From: Candidatus Stramentimicrobium fermentans
Lineage (GTDB): Bacteria > Atribacterota > Phoenicimicrobiia > Phoenicimicrobiales > Stramentimicrobiaceae
Direction of reading: 5' to 3'
NCBI GenBank assembly: GCA_012520575.1
Contig: JAAYOB010000002.1
Coordinates: 1-64,000, forward strand
DNA: 64,000 bases
The position numbers and the translations under genes were made by a program. The notes beneath the pieces were generated by a model. The model searched no databases, was not told the origin of the DNA, and was given only the letters and a program-made list of their open reading frames with translations. This document shows positions 1-9,543 of the stretch, in pieces (the stretch's first letter is position 1; each line of letters begins with the position of its first letter).

Positions 1-1042
1 CATAAAATTTCTTAAAGATTTCTACGCCTTTTTGGTCAACATCGATATCCTGAAATGCCTCCGGATACATCAATTTCCCTACATAATAGGCATCGACAAT
101 TGCATTTTCTTTGTTGTAGGTATACCAACAGAAGGGCAAGATATAATGTACTTTATTTTCCCGGATTGCCTTAAGCTCTTTAAAAGGACTGGTTTGTAAT
201 TCATTTTCTATAATACCTATGGATACAGGAGATATGAATATTACATCGGGATTCCAACCGACTAATACTTCTTTATCTATATTAACTCCGGAACTCATCT
301 CGGACAATTCTTGGGCAACATTCGGTACATTGGCCCAGTTAAAGGGTGGCCATTGGGGATCGGTTGCGGTCATTCCGTGGGAACCGTAAAAAGCCCGGCC
401 GGCAATATAAGCCGTTAATTTTTGTTCATCGGGAATATTTTTGGTACGCTCGTTCAAATCCCGGGTGTAATATTCCATGATATTGATTAACTGCTCCGCT
501 CGTTCTTTGTTACCTAGAGCTTCTCCGGTAGTCCTTAAAGATTGGTAAAACATCTCATCTTGTTTCGGTGTACCAACAGGATTGGTATATACTGTAATAA
601 CCGGAATCCTGGTCTTATTTTGTAAATCATCCGCCTTTTGCGGATCGCTTGCTCCCATAAAAATGATATCCGGATTTAACTGAATAATCACCTCATGGTT
701 AAATCCGCTTCCTCCTACACCGACATTAACTACCGGCAAATCGTACAATTCAGGGAAAGCCAACATATATGGTAAATCAGAACCCTGCGGGGCTCCCTTT
801 TCATCGGTTTCAGCTTTTTCGCGGTATTCAATACCTACAATCTTGTCGGCTACATCAAAAGAGAGCACTTCCCTAAGAGAACATCCTACTGCCAGAATTC
901 GGTTGACCTCCTGTGGTATCAGCACTTCTCTGCCCAAGGTATCGGCTATCAGAATATCAGATGCCAGGCAATAGGGAGCGAAAATACTGACAAACATTAG
1001 GCTTAAAAAAATAACAAGAATACTTCTTTTTTTACTTAACAT
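1..1042 (-). CDS. FecB/BtuF-type ABC transporter substrate-binding protein, 3' end outside window
   Basis: Reading leftward from ATG at 1042 (GGAGG at -9) gives at least 347 residues with no stop before the window edge, so the C-terminus is missing. The N-terminus is a signal peptide (MLSKKRS, then a hydrophobic run ending near CLAS). The body has the periplasmic-binding-protein pattern of the FecB/BtuF class: two lobes with phrases such as VNRILAVGCSLREVLSF, LNPDIIFMG and WNPDVIFISP. The family binds metal-chelates, haem or cobalamin outside the membrane for an ABC permease, presumably encoded just beyond the left edge. A perfect NikR-type operator in its promoter suggests nickel chelate uptake. 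Family membership is clear; the ligand is inference. Confidence 0.88.
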   Translation of the reverse strand, partial: MLSKKRSILVIFLSLMFVSIFAPYCLASDILIADTLGREVLIPQEVNRILAVGCSLREVLSFDVADKIVGIEYREKAETDEKGAPQGSDLPYMLAFPELYDLPVVNVGVGGSGFNHEVIIQLNPDIIFMGASDPQKADDLQNKTRIPVITVYTNPVGTPKQDEMFYQSLRTTGEALGNKERAEQLINIMEYYTRDLNERTKNIPDEQKLTAYIAGRAFYGSHGMTATDPQWPPFNWANVPNVAQELSEMSSGVNIDKEVLVGWNPDVIFISPVSIGIIENELQTSPFKELKAIRENKVHYILPFCWYTYNKENAIVDAYYVGKLMYPEAFQDIDVDQKGVEIFKKFY

Positions 1043-1068
1043 TACTAACCTCCATCATTTTAAATATT

Positions 1069-1095
1069 GTGTTACTTTTTTAATAATTGTAACAC
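1069..1095. promoter_or_regulatory. NikR-type operator upstream of the binding-protein gene
   Basis: GTGTTAC (1069-1075) and GTAACAC (1089-1095) form a perfect 7-bp inverted repeat separated by 13 bases. This matches the GTGTTAC-N13/14-GTAACAC recognition sequence I recall for nickel-responsive NikR of Geobacter and relatives. On the minus strand a TTGCTT-N16-TACAAT promoter can be drawn with its -10 inside the repeat, 27 bases or more before the ATG at 1042, so binding would block transcription. No nikR gene is visible in this window. Confidence 0.6.
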
Positions 1096-1514
1096 TATTC
1101 TAAAATAAAGCAAGGGGCCGTCTCCATTTTTATAATATAATTAAAAAATGCTTTTAAAATTAACCTCTTTAATGGCTAAGAAAATAATCCTTATTATAAA
1201 ACTGTAGGGCCGGTAAGAGGTAATTCCGGCTAACAGGAAGAAGAAAGATTTATAAAAAGGCTTCAAATAAACTTTTTCATGGGACTAGGTCTGATTTATA
1301 ATAGACAGATAGGAAAAGGAATTTTATTTATTAACCCATAGAGCAGAAAACTATGGGTTCACCCATAGATGAATGGGAAGGTGTCGATATGATAAAAAAT
1401 AACATACAAACAAGGATTTCGGATTATATAGATGAGTGGTGTATAGAAAAAATAGCTTTTTGTATAAATGACATTAATATTTTTAGATATTAATTAAAAA
1501 ATCACAATATTTTA
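1096..1514. other. Intergenic region between divergent genes, with small hairpins
   Basis: No supported gene. AACCCATAG (1333-1341) and CTATGGGTT (1351-1359) form a 9-bp hairpin, followed by a weaker CCCAT/ATGGG repeat (1362-1377). I do not recognise a known riboswitch. A 34-codon frame from ATG 1390 lacks any recognisable content. A half-site TTAGATAT at 1483-1490 matches half of the palindrome at 2053-2066. Confidence 0.4.
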
Positions 1515-1543
1515 TTGACACCTCCTGATATTATTTATATAAT
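1515..1543 (+). promoter_or_regulatory. Consensus sigma-70 promoter of the DtxR-family regulator
   Basis: TTGACA (1515-1520), a 17-base spacer and TATAAT (1538-1543) match the vegetative consensus exactly. It lies 37 bases before the TTG start at 1581, so it should drive the metal-dependent regulator. Confidence 0.8.
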
Positions 1544-1580
1544 CATAAAAAAGTTTTAATATTCTAAATAAGGATTTGTT

Positions 1581-2024
1581 TTGATAAAAGATAAATTATC
1601 CCCAAGAATGGAAGATTACCTGGAAACTATCTCTTTTATTGAAGAGAAAAAAGAAGTAGCCAGAGTCGGTGAGATAGCTGATGCTTTAGGTGTAAAAAGT
1701 TCCAGTGTTAATGTAATGTTAAAGATCTTGTCAGGGAAAGGCCTGCTTGTATATGAAAAATATGGCTATATTAAGCTAACCAAGGCTGGCCGGGAAATAG
1801 CTGAAAAAATAAAAGAAAGGCATCATTTTTTAAATAAGTTTTTGGTGAAATACTTAGGGATATCGCCTGATATAGCAGCCATCGATGCCTGTGGTTTGGA
1901 ACATTCACTGAGCAAAGAGACCTTTGTCCAATTTAAAAAATTTGTTTCTTTTTTAGAAGAAGATAAGGACCATCAAAATATAAATATTCATAAAGAAATT
2001 GAAGAATATAGTAATAAGAAATAG
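1581..2024 (+). CDS. DtxR/MntR-family metal-dependent transcriptional regulator
   Basis: A 147-residue protein of MntR length: an N-terminal winged helix-turn-helix (about 12-70, ARVGEIADALGVKSSSVNVML) and a dimerisation/metal domain. It starts with TTG after AAGGA at suitable spacing. Putative metal ligands by alignment from memory are D12 and E15 (as MntR D8/E11), H81, then C104-x-x-E107-H108. MntR has Glu at the C104 position, whereas DtxR/IdeR has Cys in the same C-x-x-E-H arrangement, so the site is a hybrid of manganese-type and iron-type. The family represses metal uptake genes when loaded. The neighbouring metal-binding proteins and Feo genes are the likely targets; the metal is not settled. 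Confidence 0.9.
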   Translation: MIKDKLSPRMEDYLETISFIEEKKEVARVGEIADALGVKSSSVNVMLKILSGKGLLVYEKYGYIKLTKAGREIAEKIKERHHFLNKFLVKYLGISPDIAAIDACGLEHSLSKETFVQFKKFVSFLEEDKDHQNINIHKEIEEYSNKK

Positions 2025-2506
2025 ATAGTAAATATTTTTTTTAACTTCAGTTTTAGATATATCTAACATAATAAGATGATTAAAACATATTACTGGTTAT
2101 AACCAAACATATGGTGTTAGCTACAGGCAAATGAAAAAAGTTTCTATAGAAACAATTTACTGATTGATATTCAAAAAATTCAGGGGATGAGGATAAAAAA
2201 TGTATTAATCAGAATAGAAGGCATACATTTTTGTAACCATATTGAGAAGGAGTTTCATTATCATAGATAGGTTAGTCGCTTTGTTAATAAAATAGCTTCT
2301 TGGATTAGGGGAAAGGCAACATAAGGACTTTTAAAATAATATTACTTAAAAAAGGAGGTGGATTGTTTTCAACTTTTCGTTTGGCTGGCAAAATTGAGTT
2401 TTAATGCAAGTAGTGTATTGATATTAGTTAATGGAGATATAGCGAGGATTTCTCCGTACAGGCAAGGATTTACTGTGAATTAGAAGAAAGTAGAGGTAAT
2501 TTTAAC
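2025..2506. other. Regulatory/non-coding stretch upstream of zinT with palindromes
   Basis: No gene I can support. TTAGATATATCTAA (2053-2066) is a perfect 14-bp palindrome of the TTAG-N6-CTAA form seen in DtxR-family operators. TGGTTATAACCA (2092-2103) is a second perfect palindrome. A very strong Shine-Dalgarno (AAGGAGGTG, near 2352) is followed only by a TTG-started 13-codon frame, so it may belong to a decayed gene or a leader peptide. The remaining short frames show no family resemblance. Confidence 0.4.
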
Positions 2507-3148
2507 ATGATAAGAAATAGATTAACAATAGTTATTGCTGGCATGTTAGTTCTTGTATTAATGGCTTACGGTATCGGAATGGCACAAGAAGAAAGTGAAG
2601 TGTCCGATTTATCCTTGTGGGAAGGAGAGAATGAAACCTATGTGAATATTTTTGATACAGCAAGTGCGGGCGAGTTATTTAACGAGATAGCTAAATATGT
2701 TGAAGGTTATGATGGCGAAATGGTCCGCAATTTCTATAACAAATTTTACGAGACTCCATTTTCTACAATAAGGATAATGGGGAAGAAGACCGTTATTTTT
2801 GATGAAGAGATTGAGGCGGATTACGAATATATTGGGGTGTTAAATACAAAATGGGGAGAATACAATATTGCATGGCATATCTTTAGAACGGATAACAGCC
2901 GGGCAATCGATGCTGGCTACAGACATCTAATCCTTATGCCTTATCACGGCCATGGTGAAGGAAGCATAAGGCATTGTCATATGCGTTATGGCAATGAAAA
3001 TTTTGATTTCTTAACCACGGATCCGTCAATTTCCAATTGGTGGCCCACTCTTTATAGACCCAATGAGGTGAATAAGGAAGAAGTGGTTAAGAATATGATG
3101 GGGCAGGCAAAAATGCTTGCTGATACGCTGAAAACGTCTGAAAAATAG
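2507..3148 (+). CDS. zinT: ZinT/YodA-family secreted metal-binding protein
   Basis: 213 residues with an N-terminal signal peptide (hydrophobic to about 26, GMAQ). The rest follows the ZinT domain: LWEGENETYVN near the start, a central YNKFYETPFSTIRIMGKKTVIF, then the His cluster H147-G-H149 and H156-C-H158, and NWWPTLYRP near the end. In known ZinT proteins three such His residues bind zinc or cadmium, and the protein delivers zinc to an ABC binding protein. Here the usual HFH motif is HCH, which adds a thiol. It heads a run of three secreted proteins leading to the split FeoB, so it may chaperone the imported metal at the cell surface. Confidence 0.88.
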   Translation: MIRNRLTIVIAGMLVLVLMAYGIGMAQEESEVSDLSLWEGENETYVNIFDTASAGELFNEIAKYVEGYDGEMVRNFYNKFYETPFSTIRIMGKKTVIFDEEIEADYEYIGVLNTKWGEYNIAWHIFRTDNSRAIDAGYRHLILMPYHGHGEGSIRHCHMRYGNENFDFLTTDPSISNWWPTLYRPNEVNKEEVVKNMMGQAKMLADTLKTSEK

Positions 3149-3180
3149 ATAGCCGGGAAAAGAAAACAGCGGAATTAGCT

Positions 3181-3256
3181 GACCTTAGCCTTTGAGATTT
3201 TAATTATCAATAATCAAACTTAGCTTGAGCTTGACCGGGCGAGCAAGGCTAAGGTC
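3181..3256. repeat. Long-range inverted repeat between zinT and the HTP-protein gene
   Basis: GACCTTAGCCTT (3181-3192) and AAGGCTAAGGTC (3245-3256) are a perfect 12-bp inverted repeat enclosing about 52 bases. No T-tract follows, so an RNA leader structure or processing site is more likely than a simple terminator. It does not match a riboswitch I know. Confidence 0.5.
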
Positions 3257-3341
3257 GTCATTCATAAGAATAATATAACAAAATTTATTTAAGTATTTTG
3301 TGCAGCGAAAAAAGGAAAAATAAAAAAAGGAGATTGAGAAA

Positions 3342-3914
3342 GTGTTTAAAAAAATAAACTTACTTTTAACAGTCGTTGTTTTGGGCATGCTAGCAATCAT
3401 GCCGGTCAATGCCCATACCCCGATGCTTTATGTAGATGATTACGGAGACGGCACTGTTTATTTGGAAGGTGGCTATTCTGATGGTTCTTCTGCCTCCGGG
3501 GTTGAGATATTGTTGGTAGAGGACAAGCCCTTCGCAAATGATACCAAAGCAAGAGACAGCTATCTTGAATTGATTTTCCGTAATGAAGATTTTATAGATT
3601 TACGGAATGCATATCTAAAGTATATTGCTGAAAAAGGAAATGAATCCGAGATTTTAAAACTTACCAAGATAGAAGGAGATAGGGTTACTTTTAATGAACA
3701 AAACGAAGAAGTAGATTTTAGTAAACTACAACCTGAAATGTATCAGGAAAAACAGCTCATTATTTTTAGAAGTGCTTTAGATGAATACAGCTCGTTGAAT
3801 CTTCCAAAACCGGATGGGGCATATCTGGTGGTATTAAATGGAGGACCGGGCCATATCGTTGAAAAGAAAGGTCCGGTACTGACAGACGAAGAGAGGGAAT
3901 TTCTTAGTGAATAA
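3342..3914 (+). CDS. Secreted HTP-type protein associated with Ni/Co transport loci
   Basis: 190 residues, GTG start preceded by AAGGAG. The signal peptide ends at VNA, so cleavage would leave His as the mature N-terminus (HTPMLYVDDYGDGT), a possible metal-binding amino-terminal His. The stretch DGTVYLEGGYSDGSSASG resembles short secreted proteins found beside cobalt/nickel transporters in sulfate reducers and other anaerobes (my recollection, not a search). The C-terminal half is unfamiliar and charged. It sits between zinT and a DUF4198 gene, all in one direction, and is likely co-expressed. The function as a metal-uptake accessory is inference. Confidence 0.65.
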   Translation: MFKKINLLLTVVVLGMLAIMPVNAHTPMLYVDDYGDGTVYLEGGYSDGSSASGVEILLVEDKPFANDTKARDSYLELIFRNEDFIDLRNAYLKYIAEKGNESEILKLTKIEGDRVTFNEQNEEVDFSKLQPEMYQEKQLIIFRSALDEYSSLNLPKPDGAYLVVLNGGPGHIVEKKGPVLTDEEREFLSE

Positions 3915-3971
3915 ATAAAGAGAAATATTATCAATTACGAATAATAAAAATAATAAAAAGGAGACAATTTA

Positions 3972-4751
3972 ATGAAAAAATGTATCATTTTGTTTGTAGC
4001 AATGTTACTGATAATGGGTACTGCATTTAGCGCCTCAGCGCATTTTCAAGTCATTCTACCTTCAGATGATCTTATCAATGATGGTGAAAGTACAGAATTA
4101 GAAATTCAGTTGATATTTACCCATCCCAGTGAAGCCTCTCATACCATGGATATGGAAAAACCGGAATTGTTTGGCGTACTGCATAAAGGGAAAAAAGTGG
4201 ATCTAACTAAGACTCTGGAGTCTTTCACTTTTCATGGCGGAGATGCCTGGAAAGCCTCTTTTAACGCGAAGGGATTTGGAGACTTCTTGTTTTATTTGGT
4301 ACCTGCCCCTTATTATGAATCAGCTGAAGATAAATATATCACCCAGATAACCAAAGTAGTGGTAAATAATCTGGGAATGCCTACAGACTGGGATGCAGAG
4401 CTTGATTTACAGGCAGAGATCGTACCGCTTAACAAACCTTATGGCCTTTGGACCGGAAATGTATTTCAGGGTGTTGTCAAAATGGATGGCGAACCGGTTC
4501 CTTATGCTGAAGTGGAAGTTGAAAGAATCAATTCTCAAGCCTTCAGTGGTTTAGCAGGGGAAGAGCCGAAGTTTCCTTCTGATGCCCATATAACACAGGT
4601 AATTCGGGCAGACGAAAATGGTGTTTTTACTTATGGTATACCTAAATCAGGATGGTGGGGATTTGCTGCCTTAATGGAAGGAGAGGAAATTAAAGGCAAA
4701 GACCATGAAATAGGAGCAGTTATGTGGGTTAAAGCTTACGATTTGAATTAA
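3972..4751 (+). CDS. DUF4198 secreted protein, NikK-like nickel transport accessory
   Basis: 259 residues with a signal peptide ending SASA, again leaving His at the mature N-terminus (HFQVILPSDDLI). The body fits DUF4198: an Ig-like front half (TELEIQLIFTHPSE, HTMDMEKP) and a carboxypeptidase-regulatory-like back half (VVKMDGEPVPYAEVEVE, DENGVFTYGIPKSGWW). Members labelled NikK accompany nickel energy-coupling transporters. No CbiMNQO genes are visible here; the next gene is a FeoB-type permease. AAAGGAG lies before the ATG. The family call is firm; nickel specificity is an inference supported by the NikR box at 1069-1095. Confidence 0.75.
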   Translation: MKKCIILFVAMLLIMGTAFSASAHFQVILPSDDLINDGESTELEIQLIFTHPSEASHTMDMEKPELFGVLHKGKKVDLTKTLESFTFHGGDAWKASFNAKGFGDFLFYLVPAPYYESAEDKYITQITKVVVNNLGMPTDWDAELDLQAEIVPLNKPYGLWTGNVFQGVVKMDGEPVPYAEVEVERINSQAFSGLAGEEPKFPSDAHITQVIRADENGVFTYGIPKSGWWGFAALMEGEEIKGKDHEIGAVMWVKAYDLN

Positions 4752-4788
4752 AACTTAAGATTTGTAGTATATAAATAAGAGAAACTGC

Positions 4789-4833
4789 AAGAATATCTTG
4801 CATAATAAGTTCTACTTTATGCAAGATATTCTT
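4789..4833 (+). repeat. Strong 17-bp hairpin between the DUF4198 gene and feoB
   Basis: Two arms (4789-4805 and 4817-4833) are perfectly complementary over 17 bp with an 11-base loop. Only a weak T-rich stretch follows, so it may be an attenuator, an mRNA stabiliser for the upstream genes or an imperfect terminator. The motif GCAAGAT recurs just downstream. Confidence 0.6.
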
Positions 4834-4889
4834 CTGATTCTACGCAAGATCTAAGATAGACAAGATGAACTTTAAAGGGGATTTGTTGT

Positions 4890-6716
4890 ATGGATAGGAA
4901 CATCATAGATTATGTTGAGAAAAAAAGAGAAGAAATCAAAGAGAAAGAAGGGAAAGATCCTGAAAGGATTATTTCACTGCAGTATAATAAAAGAGCGATG
5001 CAAATTGCTTCAAAATGCATAAAAGAAACTAAAAAAGGGCAGCAATCTTTAACCAGTAAAATTGACAAAATTGTTTTAAATAGATATTTTGGCCCGATTA
5101 TTCTGTTAGGTATTATCTATCTCTTATACCATTTTAGTATTGTTCAAGGTTACAAGATAACCAATTACACCTGGCCAATTTTAGCATCATTCAGGGATTT
5201 AATTATTTTGATTCTCCCCCCGGAAGGTTTGCTTTTCGATCCGTTATTGCGCTCCATGACCCTTAGCGTGGTTGATGGTGTTCTGGCTGTTTTAAATTAT
5301 ATTCCTATTTTTGCCATCCTGTATACCTTGGTGGCTGTCCTGGAAGATGTTGGCTATATACCTCGAATGACTTTTATTATGGATCGGGTTTTCCGTCATT
5401 TTGGACTACATGGGCAGTCATTGTTCCCTCTTGTTTTAGGTGGCGTGTTTGTTGGTGGTTGCGCTATCCCAGGCGTTATGGCTACCAGAGGAATAAAGGA
5501 CGAGAGAGCTCGTTTGGCAACTATTCTTATCGTTCCGCTTATGAATTGTGCGGCTAAGACCCCCTTGTATCTTCTTCTAATCGGTATATTTTTTGCCCAG
5601 TATCAAAGTTTTGTTATATTTTTTATGGCTACAATTACGTTGATTATTGCCCTTAGTGTCAGCAAGTTATTTTCGTTAACAATCCTAAAGAATAAAGAAC
5701 AAGCACCTTTTGTTTTAGAGATGCCCCCCTATCATTTACCTACCGTTGGCGGTGTTTTAAGAAGATGTATTGAGAGATTATGGATATTTATCAGAAAGAT
5801 GGTCACCGTAGTTGTGGCAGTCATGATTCTAGTGTTTGTTTTGACAAATTTTCCAGGCATTAATCAAGAATCGAGAAGTAATTATCAATCACAAATGAAT
5901 CGGATTGTTGACAAGTTTTACCGTAGTATAGGAGAAGAATCTCCTTATCGTGCTGTACTTTCAGGAGATAATCTGGAAAGCTATATCAACTATAGCAATG
6001 ATTATAGTTTGGCAAAACGGGGTGCAAATGGCGCAAAAAAGGAAGACATAATTGAGCAAAAGTTTAGGGAAAGAAACAAAGATTTTTACATCATTGCCAA
6101 TAGAGGAATATATAGAGAAGAGGGTGAGCTTACAAGAGATAAAGATGCCATACAGGTATCTAAGGCGCTTACTCAGTTTGAACGAAGCAGAAAAGAAATA
6201 AGAGCCGAGATACACGACAAGACTGTTATTGGCAGTGTGCTTGGTTTTGTTGGCCGTAAATTAGAGCCAATAACTAAATACGCCGGATTTAATTGGCGGG
6301 TCAATATTGCCCTGATCAGTTCTTTTGCTACAAAAGAAAGCAGTGTCGCAACTTTAGGCAGTATCTATAAATCAGACGAAGGGGCAAGTTTGGAACAAAA
6401 GGTTGCTGAACAGGAAACAGGATGGACCCCACTACATGCACTTGCCATTATGTTGTTTATGGCCATGTATCCGCCGTGTATTCCTACGCTGTTGGCTGTA
6501 CGATTGGAAACCGGTAGTACCAAATGGATGCTCTTTGCTACTTTTTATCCTATTATTTTGGGTTCCATTATTGCAGTGCTTATTTTTAGTGGAGGGAGTT
6601 CGTTAGGTCTTACCGGTATACAGGCGGTAATATGGTTTTATGTTTTAGCAATTATTGTAATGATCTTAATGGGTCTTATTAAAAATAGAACCGATGAAAT
6701 TAATGATAATTTGTAA
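4890..6716 (+). CDS. feoB: FeoB membrane half (GTPase domain encoded separately)
   Basis: 608 residues. The first 65 or so are a charged helical segment that corresponds to the end of the FeoB helical spacer (SLTSKIDKIVLNRYFG). Gate-type membrane repeats follow: DVGYIPRMTFIMDR, GLHGQSLFPL, GGCAIPGVMATRG (the conserved Cys-Pro motif), PLMNCAAKTPLY, and in the second repeat NIALISSFATKESSVATLGSIY and MYPPCIPTLLAV. No P-loop is present. The GTPase half is the gene at 7281-7964, after two feoA genes. About residues 323-455 are a hydrophilic, Lys/Glu-rich insertion between the two repeats, larger than I expect in ordinary FeoB. FeoB imports ferrous iron; the neighbours hint that nickel or another divalent metal could be carried. 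Confidence 0.88.
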   Translation: MDRNIIDYVEKKREEIKEKEGKDPERIISLQYNKRAMQIASKCIKETKKGQQSLTSKIDKIVLNRYFGPIILLGIIYLLYHFSIVQGYKITNYTWPILASFRDLIILILPPEGLLFDPLLRSMTLSVVDGVLAVLNYIPIFAILYTLVAVLEDVGYIPRMTFIMDRVFRHFGLHGQSLFPLVLGGVFVGGCAIPGVMATRGIKDERARLATILIVPLMNCAAKTPLYLLLIGIFFAQYQSFVIFFMATITLIIALSVSKLFSLTILKNKEQAPFVLEMPPYHLPTVGGVLRRCIERLWIFIRKMVTVVVAVMILVFVLTNFPGINQESRSNYQSQMNRIVDKFYRSIGEESPYRAVLSGDNLESYINYSNDYSLAKRGANGAKKEDIIEQKFRERNKDFYIIANRGIYREEGELTRDKDAIQVSKALTQFERSRKEIRAEIHDKTVIGSVLGFVGRKLEPITKYAGFNWRVNIALISSFATKESSVATLGSIYKSDEGASLEQKVAEQETGWTPLHALAIMLFMAMYPPCIPTLLAVRLETGSTKWMLFATFYPIILGSIIAVLIFSGGSSLGLTGIQAVIWFYVLAIIVMILMGLIKNRTDEINDNL

Positions 6717-6770
6717 TCCAATAAAAAATTTATTAACCAGATAAATAACCAGGAAATGGAGAATCAGAGA

Positions 6771-7025
6771 ATGGTGTTTAATCAATCTAAAATTATACCA
6801 CTGGCTCAACTTAAAGCAGGGCAAAAAGGCCGGGTAACTTTAGTCGGGCTTTGTGGAGGAAGAGATTTTTCTCAACATTTGCATGATATGGGTATTATTG
6901 AAGGATCAGAAATTGAAGTGATTACCCCCGGTAGGCCAGGTCCTTTTTTGGTCAACATAAATAATACATCTTTGGCTATCGGTCAGGGAGTGGCCGGCAA
7001 AATCATGATTGAAGAGAGAAGATAG
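6771..7025 (+). CDS. feoA: FeoA-domain protein, first copy
   Basis: 84 residues of SH3-like FeoA fold (LAQLKAGQKGRVTLVGLCGG, LHDMGIIEGSEIEVI, LAIGQGVAGKI). I chose ATG 6771 because GGAG lies 9 bases upstream; an ATG at 6756 has no site. FeoA proteins bind FeoB and modulate its activity in the cytoplasm. It lies between the two FeoB halves. Confidence 0.85.
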   Translation: MVFNQSKIIPLAQLKAGQKGRVTLVGLCGGRDFSQHLHDMGIIEGSEIEVITPGRPGPFLVNINNTSLAIGQGVAGKIMIEERR

Positions 7026-7041
7026 AGGAGGAAGTTTTTCT

Positions 7042-7284
7042 ATGTCAAAAAACAAAGCATTCTATTTGAACCAATTAAAACCCGGTCAAAAATGTAAGTT
7101 GGTTGATGTTAATATAGGTGGGGCTACAGGTCAGAGATTAACAGATATGGGCTTTATTCCGGGTGTTGAGATAGAAGTGTTACGCAATGCTCCCTTAGTT
7201 GATCCGGTTGAATTGAAAATAAGGGGTTACAATGTGAGCATTCGTCATTCTGACGCCAAATATATAGAGGTAAATATTTTATGA
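7042..7284 (+). CDS. feoA: FeoA-domain protein, second copy
   Basis: 80 residues, again FeoA-like (LNQLKPGQKCKLVDVN, QRLTDMGFIPGVEIEVL, LKIRGYNVSIRHSDAKYIEV). ATG 7042 follows GAGGAGG. Its stop overlaps the ATG of the G-domain gene by four bases (ATGA), which implies translational coupling. It is diverged from the first copy, so the two probably have different contacts on the split transporter. Confidence 0.87.
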   Translation: MSKNKAFYLNQLKPGQKCKLVDVNIGGATGQRLTDMGFIPGVEIEVLRNAPLVDPVELKIRGYNVSIRHSDAKYIEVNIL

Positions 7285-7964
7285 ATAAGAACAAACAAGA
7301 ATATATCGTTGCGGTAGCAGGGCAGCCAAATTCCGGTAAATCTACTGTCTTTAATATGTTAACCGGAGCCAGGCAATTTGTAGCTAATTATCCCGGCGTT
7401 ACGGTAGAGAAAAGGATTGGTATTTATTCTTATCAGGGGCAAAAGATCAAATTGGTTGATTTGCCCGGAACCTATAGCCTGACTTCATACAGTTTAGAAG
7501 AAAGAGTTGCCCGCAACTTTTTAATAAACGAAAACCCTGATCTGGTACTGAATATTGCCGATGCTTCCAATCTGGAACGCCATCTCGTCTTAACTGTCCA
7601 GCTTTTAGAGATGGGCATGCCCTTAGTCGTTGCTTTAAATATGATGGATATTTCCAAAGGTAGAGGATTTGAAATTGATGAAGAGAGCCTTGCTAAAGAA
7701 CTTGGAGTGCCCGTTGTTCCGACTATTGCCCAAAAAGGAAGAGGGAAAGAAGAATTGCGGCAGGCTATTTTAAAAGGTTGCCTTGGCAAAGATAAGTACA
7801 AGAATAGTCTTGTAGTAGATTATGGTCAAAAAATAGAACAAATTTTAGATGAGTTGACACAGAATATTGCTAATGATAATAGGTATTCTAATTATAATCC
7901 CCGCTGGCTGGCAATCAAACTATTAGCCGGTGATACGGAAGTAAGGAGTATGTTCCACCAATGA
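7281..7964 (+). CDS. feoB: FeoB GTPase half (stand-alone G domain)
   Basis: 227 residues covering only the FeoB G domain and the start of the helical spacer. Visible motifs: G1 GQPNSGKST, G2-region NYPGVTVEK, G3 DLPGTYSLTSYS, G4 NMMD, and a G5-like TIAQKGRG. It ends RWLAIKLLAGDTEVRSMFHQ, exactly where an ordinary FeoB would continue into the segment that begins the 4890-6716 protein. The two genes therefore tile one FeoB with the order of halves reversed. Translation is coupled to feoA by a four-base overlap. Confidence 0.92.
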   Translation: MNKNKQEYIVAVAGQPNSGKSTVFNMLTGARQFVANYPGVTVEKRIGIYSYQGQKIKLVDLPGTYSLTSYSLEERVARNFLINENPDLVLNIADASNLERHLVLTVQLLEMGMPLVVALNMMDISKGRGFEIDEESLAKELGVPVVPTIAQKGRGKEELRQAILKGCLGKDKYKNSLVVDYGQKIEQILDELTQNIANDNRYSNYNPRWLAIKLLAGDTEVRSMFHQ

Positions 7965-7989
7965 GGAATTAATGAAGGAGAAAATAGTT

Positions 7990-8136
7990 ATGGATAATAT
8001 CATATTAATCATTGTTGGTCTGATAAGCGGGTACTATATTTATCGAAAATTATTTAAATGTAGCACCGGTAAAAACTTTTGTAAATCATGCGGGACGTGT
8101 AATGTCTGTCAGATATCAAAAACCAAAAAAAGATAG
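7990..8136 (+). CDS. FeoB-associated Cys-rich membrane peptide
   Basis: 48 residues: one N-terminal membrane helix (IILIIVGLISGYYIY) and a short cytoplasmic tail with five Cys (C24, C31, C34, C37, C40) in C-x2-C spacing (CKSCGTCNVC), as in the FeoB-associated Cys-rich family. AAGGAG lies 9 bases before the ATG. It ends the feo cluster 25 bases after the G-domain gene. Its molecular job is unknown; metal handling at the transporter exit is the usual guess. Confidence 0.85.
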   Translation: MDNIILIIVGLISGYYIYRKLFKCSTGKNFCKSCGTCNVCQISKTKKR

Positions 8137-8367
8137 AGTTTGTTTTATTTTTACTGGATATATTCTTTAAAAGTGATGATAGAATTATAATCCGTTCTTT
8201 ATGGTCTTTTTGTATTATTTTTCCTATGGAATATTTTAATGAATAAAGAAATAAATAATATTGAAGAGAATTCGGCAATATCTTTTTCATTTATTTTTCA
8301 CCTTTAAAGACAAGCCGTTCATAAAGTGTAAAAATACTTCTATCCATTTTTTTAGAAAAGAGATCAA

Positions 8368-9543
8368 TTATCGGAATATTAATCGAGATAGTTTACTTCT
8401 CTTTATTTCAACTGCCTGTTCAGGGCATAATTCCTGACAGCAGAAACAGCGAATGCAACGCGTAAGGTCTGCCTGGGGTTTACTTGCAATCATCTCAATA
8501 CATTGGGGCGGACAGTTGCGGGCACATAGACCGCAGTTAATACATTTTTTGTGTATAAAAATAGGCTTAGGACGTAATAGTTTATAAAAGAAATCGTCCA
8601 ATTTAGCAGGTAGGGGAATGGGAAGATGTCTGCTTCTGGAGGTAGCAGGTACTTTGAAAGGTATCGGTTTGAATTCTTCATCGGCTATTCCTCGAATATC
8701 CAGTTCCCGGATATTCTTTGGTATCAGCCCTCTTGCTATAGCCTTCTGCAAGGTAGGTACCTGCTCAGGGTTAAGTCCAATGATATAACAGCAAGCCAGG
8801 TCGAGCCCATGCGGGTTTTCCGATGCGGCTAAAAGGCCTACTGATTTCGGTTCACCGGCAGAAGGGCCCGGACCCTCCATGGCAATAACGGCATCCATAA
8901 TGGATAGAGTTGGTTTTACAAATTGAGCGATATCGACCAACATATCAGAAAAATCTCTTACATCATCCAGCCTTAAATGGTAATCCGCTTTCAGGAGACC
9001 GGGTATAGTGCCGAAAAGATTCTTTACCGCACCGGTATAGATGGTAAAACCATGTGTTTTTAGTTTAGCCAGAGAAATAACAACATCTGCTTCTTTAACA
9101 ATTTTTGCCAGGGTAATATGTTTTAAGATTCTACCTTCCGGATAAGAAAATTCCTGCTGCTCAAAATTCCAATTTAGCTCAGCACCGGTCCGTTTAGCAA
9201 CTTTTACCATGCCGGTTTCCTGATAGATACCCTTTAACCAGGCTTTGGTAAATGGACCGCCCGGACTATCAGCTATAATGGTTTTTGCCCCCAGGGCTTG
9301 GATTTGATTAACAAGAGCTTCCACTAAAGCCGGATGTGTGGTGACTGCAGCCTCCGGGGGTTTTTTCATTAAAAGGTTGACCTTCAAGAGTACCTTTTGT
9401 CCGGGCTTTATATATTGGGCTAAACCCCCTAATTCAGCGAGTAATTGCTGAACAGCCTGGTTCACTTCATTTTGTTGATAGGTCTTACAAGGTATAAAGG
9501 CTACCTTTTTATTTAACATAATTACACTTCTCTCAACCTTCAT
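8368..9543 (-). CDS. DUF362 protein with C-terminal 2[4Fe-4S] ferredoxin domain
   Basis: 391 residues. The DUF362 domain (about 15-290) has typical phrases (KVLLKVNLLMKKPPE, ADSPGGPFT, SLAKLKTHGFTIYTGAVKNLFG, IMDAVIAMEGPGPSAG). The C-terminus has two CxxCxxCxxxC clusters, CINCGLCARNCPPQC and CIRCFCCQELCP. Such proteins are common in anaerobes; the reaction is not known. An alternative ATG lies nine codons in (MLNKK). It converges on the feo cluster, and the 230 bases between (8137-8367) hold no gene or clear terminator. Confidence 0.85.
   Translation of the reverse strand: MKVERSVIMLNKKVAFIPCKTYQQNEVNQAVQQLLAELGGLAQYIKPGQKVLLKVNLLMKKPPEAAVTTHPALVEALVNQIQALGAKTIIADSPGGPFTKAWLKGIYQETGMVKVAKRTGAELNWNFEQQEFSYPEGRILKHITLAKIVKEADVVISLAKLKTHGFTIYTGAVKNLFGTIPGLLKADYHLRLDDVRDFSDMLVDIAQFVKPTLSIMDAVIAMEGPGPSAGEPKSVGLLAASENPHGLDLACCYIIGLNPEQVPTLQKAIARGLIPKNIRELDIRGIADEEFKPIPFKVPATSRSRHLPIPLPAKLDDFFYKLLRPKPIFIHKKCINCGLCARNCPPQCIEMIASKPQADLTRCIRCFCCQELCPEQAVEIKRSKLSRLIFR

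Follow-up and report, generated by a model that had tools for sequence, protein, structure and literature searches.

The Feo ferrous iron system comprises FeoA, a G domain, a Gate-type permease with conserved gate cysteines, and FeoC or a Cys-rich FeoB-associated peptide, and accounts of FeoB generally invoke no periplasmic delivery protein. The nickel/cobalt energy-coupling factor (ECF) importer NikKMLQO has periplasmic K (DUF4198) and L components, both with a mature N-terminal histidine; NikK/NikL-type proteins lacking a nickel transporter were recorded in 2009, and their neighbourhoods gave no clue (PMC2667541). N-terminal-His periplasmic proteins proposed to fish metal for a permease are also known from Anglerase-HupE/UreJ and IsDUF4198, and related N-terminal-His domains have been proposed to feed HupE permeases (PMC12537917). 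In FeoABI of Stenotrophomonas maltophilia, an inner-membrane partner widens the substrate of FeoB (PMC9047314), and PgMntR-FeoB2 of Porphyromonas gingivalis combines a DtxR-family regulator having a D-C-E-H site with a FeoB-type transporter (PMC4805248). Here, we describe a FeoB module at the left end of a 64,000-nucleotide stretch of Candidatus Stramentimicrobium fermentans DNA (hereafter the window; positions 1 to 64,000 of JAAYOB010000002.1), in which a FeoB permease is linked to two putatively exported proteins, the HTP and DUF4198 proteins, related to NikL and NikK. The link is real and conserved, and we lean, with some reserve, towards a variant Feo importer assisted by binding proteins, most likely for ferrous iron.

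A 79-kb contig of the 1.58-Mb genome begins at window position 1. Gene identities were taken from Pfam and NCBIfam profile searches of the window proteins. An earlier reading of the bare letters (the original prediction) had named a FecB-type protein, a DtxR regulator, ZinT, an HTP protein, a DUF4198 protein, and a split FeoB, and all were found in their predicted places. The module itself consists of the following features.

1581–2024, plus strand: DtxR/MntR-family metalloregulator (TTG start; Fe_dep_repress 57.6 bits, Fe_dep_repr_C 64.5 bits)
3342–3914, plus strand: HTP protein (no Pfam match; weak NikL match, 14.7 bits; predicted mature chain from 3414, HTPML...)
3972–4751, plus strand: DUF4198 protein (Pfam PF10670, 183 bits against a gathering threshold of 34; predicted mature chain from 4041, HFQ...)
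4890–6716, plus strand: standalone FeoB membrane permease (Gate 103 bits, FeoB_C 53 bits)
5856–6224, plus strand: clade-specific permease insert (about residues 323–445; helical with a beta hairpin; predicted periplasmic)
6756–7025, plus strand: first FeoA (Pfam FeoA 63 bits)
7042–7284, plus strand: second FeoA (Pfam FeoA 72 bits; frame open from TTG 7009)
7281–7964, plus strand: FeoB G domain and partial helical domain as a separate gene (FeoB_N 221 bits, FeoB_Cyto 39.5 bits)
7990–8136, plus strand: Cys-rich FeoB-associated membrane peptide of 48 amino acids (FeoB_associated 16.9 bits, under the cut-off of 27)

The FeoB G domain, the Gate-type permease, and FeoA of a Feo system are thus all present, and a member of the Cys-rich FeoB_associated family scoring above cut-off adjoins DUF4198 at another locus (L043). 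What sets the locus apart from Feo is the two proteins with histidine as the first mature residue (His1), an extra permease domain of ~110 residues, a G domain that is sometimes split off, and the rearranged gene order in the window. The predicted split of FeoB is present in the window but is an occasional variant, most relatives having a fused protein of ~835 amino acids, and it was therefore rejected as the novelty. In two related genomes (L035 and L039), FeoB is broken inside the permease (419 + 406 amino acids), not between the G domain and the permease.

Relative to NikKMLQO, the locus has homologous K and L proteins but no M, Q, or O, and its permease is FeoB; the NikL-like protein has no anchor and scores below the NikL cut-off, and the regulator is not NikR. 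It differs from the Anglerase-HupE/UreJ arrangement in having FeoB rather than HupE, separate proteins, and iron-type regulation; neither FeoB nor iron is mentioned in PMC12537917. The nearest precedent is FeoABI, where an extra partner also alters the usable substrate of FeoB, but FeoI is a single-span inner-membrane protein, whereas the partners here belong to other families and are predicted to be exported. In PgMntR-FeoB2, the FeoA domains are fused to the regulator, and the part of that account consulted describes no NikK/NikL-like helpers. Feo, NikKMLQO, metal binding by DUF4198, and N-terminal-His "anglers" are already known, but the pairing with FeoB is apparently undescribed, as had been supposed: a search of open-access papers gave no account that connects DUF4198, COG5266, or NikL-like proteins with FeoB.

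A genome-collection scan seeded with the two split permeases yielded 33 loci, mostly from sulfate-reducing Desulfobacterota but also from Smithella, a Thermodesulfovibrionales genome, Cloacimonas, and Atribacterota. Most derive from metagenome assemblies with short contigs, and neighbourhoods were counted at the 24 loci where the sequence extends 1.7 kb or more past the permease. An HTP/NikL-like gene was present at 23 of these and a FeoB-type DUF4198 gene at 22; the remaining two (L036 and L051) have a divergent DUF4198. Across whole genomes, 28/34 clade FeoBs but 0/37 of the other FeoBs in these genomes had a DUF4198 gene no more than 5 kb away (Fisher p ~3e-14, although related genomes are not independent), clade membership being assigned partly by locus and FeoB_C match rather than from a full FeoB tree, and for G073:C143 and G089:C180 by FeoB_C alone. 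Six clade FeoBs have no nearby DUF4198; for five of them, the contig is a fragment or stops close to FeoB, and the sixth, G067 (L030), may be a genuine exception. Gene order is rearranged in the window and in one other locus (L023), where the helpers lie ahead of the permease, but the gene set stays together.

Since the first scan was seeded with FeoB, the search was also run in reverse, using an alignment of HTP proteins against 241 genomes of one sulfate-reducer class. About 54 genomes, roughly a fifth of the class, contained a strong match, and at the 30 best loci, a clade permease was found within 1.5 kb in 27 and DUF4198 in 29. The secreted genes are decisively conserved beside FeoB, and the predicted association of NikK/NikL-like proteins with a FeoB permease is borne out. 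Orphans of the kind recorded in 2009 have a partner here, a FeoB clade, and DUF4198 and NikL-like genes should not be annotated as nickel/cobalt transport by default. At one further locus (L121; G081:C97, 1309–5719), FeoB-type HTP and DUF4198 genes lie on either side of a TonB-dependent receptor-like gene and another, divergent DUF4198; no FeoB is present in the piece examined, and the arrangement is possibly an outer-membrane version of the module.

Signal-peptide cleavage was judged by motif, and on that basis both proteins are likely exported. The predicted cleavage contexts are AxA followed by HTP in the HTP protein and AxA followed by HFQ in the DUF4198 protein, and a mature N-terminal histidine after an AxA-like motif is found in 29/29 intact HTP proteins and 26/26 DUF4198 proteins at FeoB loci. 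The histidine that the original prediction placed at the first mature residue of two secreted proteins is kept in all homologs whose N-terminus is intact.

The HTP protein is homologous to NikL, with His1 and the histidine of a GxGH motif invariant in both NikL types (His1 and His147, in GPGH, in the window protein), but it has no counterpart of the C-terminal membrane anchor of NikL. Against the NikL model NF058648, whose cut-off is 100 bits, neither the window protein nor its sulfate-reducer relatives qualify, the latter reaching 54–56 bits over their first half only, whereas NikM-linked NikL proteins score 172–180. Most family members have three extra cysteines, none of which occurs in the window protein, and NikL-like sequences gave only marginal adhesin matches in the PDB. 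Similarly, NikK is a homolog of the DUF4198 protein; both types have His1 and His28, whereas invariance of His34 is confined to the FeoB type, and the window protein has all three. On the protein trees, the NikL-like proteins split from NikM-linked NikL with a single change (100/100), and FeoB-linked and NikM-linked DUF4198 proteins are separated with two changes, the exception being L105 (see below). The HTP and DUF4198 proteins are FeoB-specific paralogs of NikL and NikK.

The AlphaFold model of the window DUF4198 (pLDDT 82) matches Zcp (9mhn, E 1.6e-12), with zinc, cobalt, or copper bound, and the nickel-bound IsDUF4198 (9gcb, E 6.2e-9), which binds Ni2+ through its mature His1 and His18 with a Kd of 18 nM (PMC12537917). 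Metal binding by the window HTP and DUF4198 proteins is likely. The sequence file names the molecule of PDB entries 9mhi–9mho as phosphoribosylglycinamide formyltransferase, whereas the fold and the titles of the entries (Zcp) indicate a DUF4198-like metal-binding protein. At two loci (L128 and L129), a divergent DUF4198 has large genes resembling outer-membrane receptors in its vicinity, together with genes that, by eye, look like those for CbiK and methyltransferases; this DUF4198 likely represents a cobalt-linked branch of the family.

The clade permease retains the gate cysteines (C191, C220, and C530, invariant in the clade alignment) and carries ~110 extra residues between two membrane segments. 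Over the alignment columns compared, clade members have 124–134 residues versus 7–51 for the majority of other FeoBs, although an unrelated second FeoB at L040 reaches 127. That protein (6104–8488, minus strand) adjoins the clade FeoB of its locus, is 31% identical to the window permease, and its 127-residue insert is of different sequence. The clade insert was modelled as helices and a beta hairpin (pLDDT ~76–87) and is probably periplasmic, because basic residues precede the preceding membrane helix (the positive-inside rule); we propose that it may serve as a docking site for the helper proteins. The permease model had no PDB match at E<=0.001, and no solved relative was found by sequence either.

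In the importer that we favor, the HTP and DUF4198 proteins would be exported to the periplasm and capture metal through an N-terminal histidine brace, then hand it to the distinct FeoB clade bearing the extra, probably periplasmic, domain. The permease would be gated by FeoA together with the G domain, here encoded by a gene of its own, and the DtxR/MntR or Fur regulator would repress the operon when metal is plentiful; repression by the DtxR protein is likely in the window. In many sulfate reducers, an outer-membrane porin of the LbtU type would complete the route. The helpers, as NikK/NikL paralogs, may have been recruited from nickel ECF importers or share ancestry with them. More tentatively, FeoB could be directly fed, the two His1 proteins passing metal to the periplasmic domain, so that a GTP-gated pore would become an importer supplied by delivery, possibly able to take metals other than free Fe2+ (chelated iron, manganese, or nickel/cobalt). 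With its dedicated helpers and extra domain, such a FeoB makes the encounter of FeoB with its metal testable and, if the proposal is true, would account for the capture of iron in sulfidic sediments, which hold little free Fe2+.

The original prediction viewed the region as a single composite island that included a NikR box. Two systems are present instead, an ancestral FecB operon behind the NikR box and a FeoB island that was apparently inserted beside it. The flanking and remaining features are as follows.

2–1042, minus strand: FecB-type substrate-binding protein (Peripla_BP_2, 64 bits; ATG at 1042; 3' end truncated by the contig start)
1069–1095: NikR operator GTGTTAC-N13-GTAACAC, directly upstream of the FecB gene
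1272–8350: apparent inserted island of ~7.08 kb, missing from the orthologous site of same-genus relatives
2086–2113: near-perfect palindrome, core TGGTTATAACCA, the sole exact copy in the genome
2507–3148, plus strand: ZinT-like secreted protein (Pfam ZinT, 39.1 bits)
4789–4833: perfect 17-bp inverted repeat between the DUF4198 and permease genes (RNA hairpin of about −22 kcal/mol; no T run)
8368–9543, minus strand: DUF362/ferredoxin protein, bounding the insertion site on its other side and adjoining FecB in relatives

On alignment to the same-genus genome G001, homology ends at window position 8351 and resumes at 1271; the gap between the homology blocks is 86 bp in G001 versus 7079 bp in the window. 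The island is also missing from the orthologous site in G003 and G004, and in all three relatives, the neighbour of FecB is the DUF362-ferredoxin gene that lies past the FeoB module in the window. Insertion of a ~7.1-kb module between two neighbour genes would be a simpler history than several losses in relatives because only one (G019) of 60 relatives has this permease. The closest match to the window module (L023; permease 77%) is on a 3906-bp contig filed under Cloacimonas sp. SDB; its presence in that bin reflects either horizontal transfer or a binning error.

The box fits the delta-proteobacterial NikR consensus (PMC545781) exactly and occurs once in the genome, as against zero copies of a reversed-pattern control; the enterobacterial consensus was discarded, as its 14 weak genome matches compare with 28 expected by chance and none is in the region. 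The genome encodes NikR (G000:C33), and the FecB gene therefore has both of the features of a NikR regulon member, the protein in the genome and an operator upstream. FecB orthologs (64–81% identical) are found in six relatives; in the five relative regions fetched, a FecCD permease and an ABC ATPase are next, and a TonB-dependent receptor and TonB follow wherever the contig is long enough. The NikR box precedes FecB exactly in G001, G004, and G006 and in relaxed form in G007, and none was found in G003 by the exact and relaxed patterns used. The box belongs to a separate, ancestral FecB-TonB operon, which is also found in relatives that lack the FeoB island. No exact NikR box lies near FeoB at any clade locus, and as the window copy precedes FecB outside the island, it was rejected as an operator of the FeoB operon. 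The predicted box is thus real, but it is not part of the FeoB system. Nickel in this genome is handled elsewhere than by the FeoB module, namely, by NikR and the FecB operon; no CbiM/NikM is encoded anywhere in the genome, and membership of the window system among nickel ECF importers was accordingly dismissed.

Iron is the probable substrate of the FeoB module because of the DtxR or Fur regulators and a Fur box, the LbtU neighbours, and the lack of NikR boxes at FeoB loci. The window regulator has both Pfam domains and the metal ligands D12, E15, H81, C104, E107, and H108, and DtxR-family regulators with this D-E-H-C-E-H set lie near the FeoB operon in the window and at 14 other loci; in every one of them, Cys occupies the iron-type position. 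Fur genes take the place of DtxR beside the operon in L030, L034, and L038, and in L034, a classic Fur box, TGATAATCATTATCA, lies 29 bp before the operon's fur gene (site at 2372, at the operon start). Relatives of the LbtU siderophore porin lie downstream in sulfate reducers, 13 of 16 scanned porins matching NF033652 at E<=0.001 (best E 3.5e-91; 107.6 bits for L031 against a cut-off of 90). In Caulobacter, DUF4198 genes are among the most strongly iron-responsive (iron-repressed), Fur-regulated genes (PMC3751524). Several observations weigh against iron or against the proposed route. The delta-proteobacterial Fur consensus was not enriched over all the FeoB loci (four sites versus six expected, only that of L034 being at an operon start), and the window has no LbtU. 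Most genomes hold another FeoB besides that of the clade, and the periplasmic side of the insert rests on charge reasoning. Three further points, the ligand set of the window regulator, the metal preference of a characterized DUF4198, and the setting of the L105 DUF4198, are taken up with the alternatives below.

Sulfate reducers inhabit sulfidic sediment where Fe2+ is scarce, which speaks against manganese as the metal, as do the LbtU neighbours and the Fur genes and Fur box that replace DtxR at some loci. A manganese importer like FeoB2 of P. gingivalis would be expected under a PgMntR-like regulator, and the ligands of the window regulator do equal the D-C-E-H site of PgMntR, which regulates a manganese FeoB (PMC4805248); the window regulator also scores best against MntR models, although below cut-off. 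On balance, we consider manganese quite unlikely, though second to iron. Nickel or cobalt, the metal of the original prediction, which had suggested a nickel or mixed-metal importer, would require that the NikK/NikL paralogs kept their ancestral substrate while feeding a re-purposed FeoB. Beyond the homology of the helpers, the only DUF4198 for which we found a published metal ranking is IsDUF4198, which prefers Ni2+ among the metals tested, iron not being reported (PMC12537917), and the NikR box is 485 bp from the DtxR start. In addition, L105 (G068:C40:15000–24000, 4068–8859) has a FeoB-type DUF4198 inside a CbiM/NikM-L-Q-O operon followed by CbiK. However, the box persists with FecB where the FeoB island is absent and is not found in exact form at other FeoB loci, the regulators and partners are of iron or manganese type, and 23/33 genomes also carry CbiM/NikM elsewhere, usually with its own K and L. 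Nickel or cobalt as the substrate is consequently improbable. The L105 arrangement also suggests that FeoB and ECF importers may exchange K proteins.

The HTP and DUF4198 proteins might instead be independent iron-starvation proteins, serving in periplasmic binding or storage or an iron reductase and sharing only a regulon with FeoB; other DUF4198 genes do sit with PepSY/ApbE/DUF2271 redox systems or TonB receptors. This is difficult to reconcile with the tight linkage to one FeoB clade and its absence from all other FeoBs of the same genomes, with the clade-specific insert, or with an NikL-like tree that matches the partner, and reductase genes are not a recurrent element of the neighbourhood clusters. 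We therefore regard independence as rather unlikely and retain the assisted Feo importer as our preferred interpretation.

The remaining features of the island are less central. The ZinT-like protein exceeds the Pfam threshold (39.1 versus 27 bits) but reaches only 25.7 bits against the NCBIfam equivalog cut-off of 300; no relative of it was found at the other FeoB loci compared, and it was rejected as a core member of the module for that reason. The search for a DtxR operator gave the single palindrome at 2086–2113, with no second genomic site for comparison, and this is possibly the operator of the DtxR protein. The hairpin at 4789–4833 may tune expression between the two halves that it separates.

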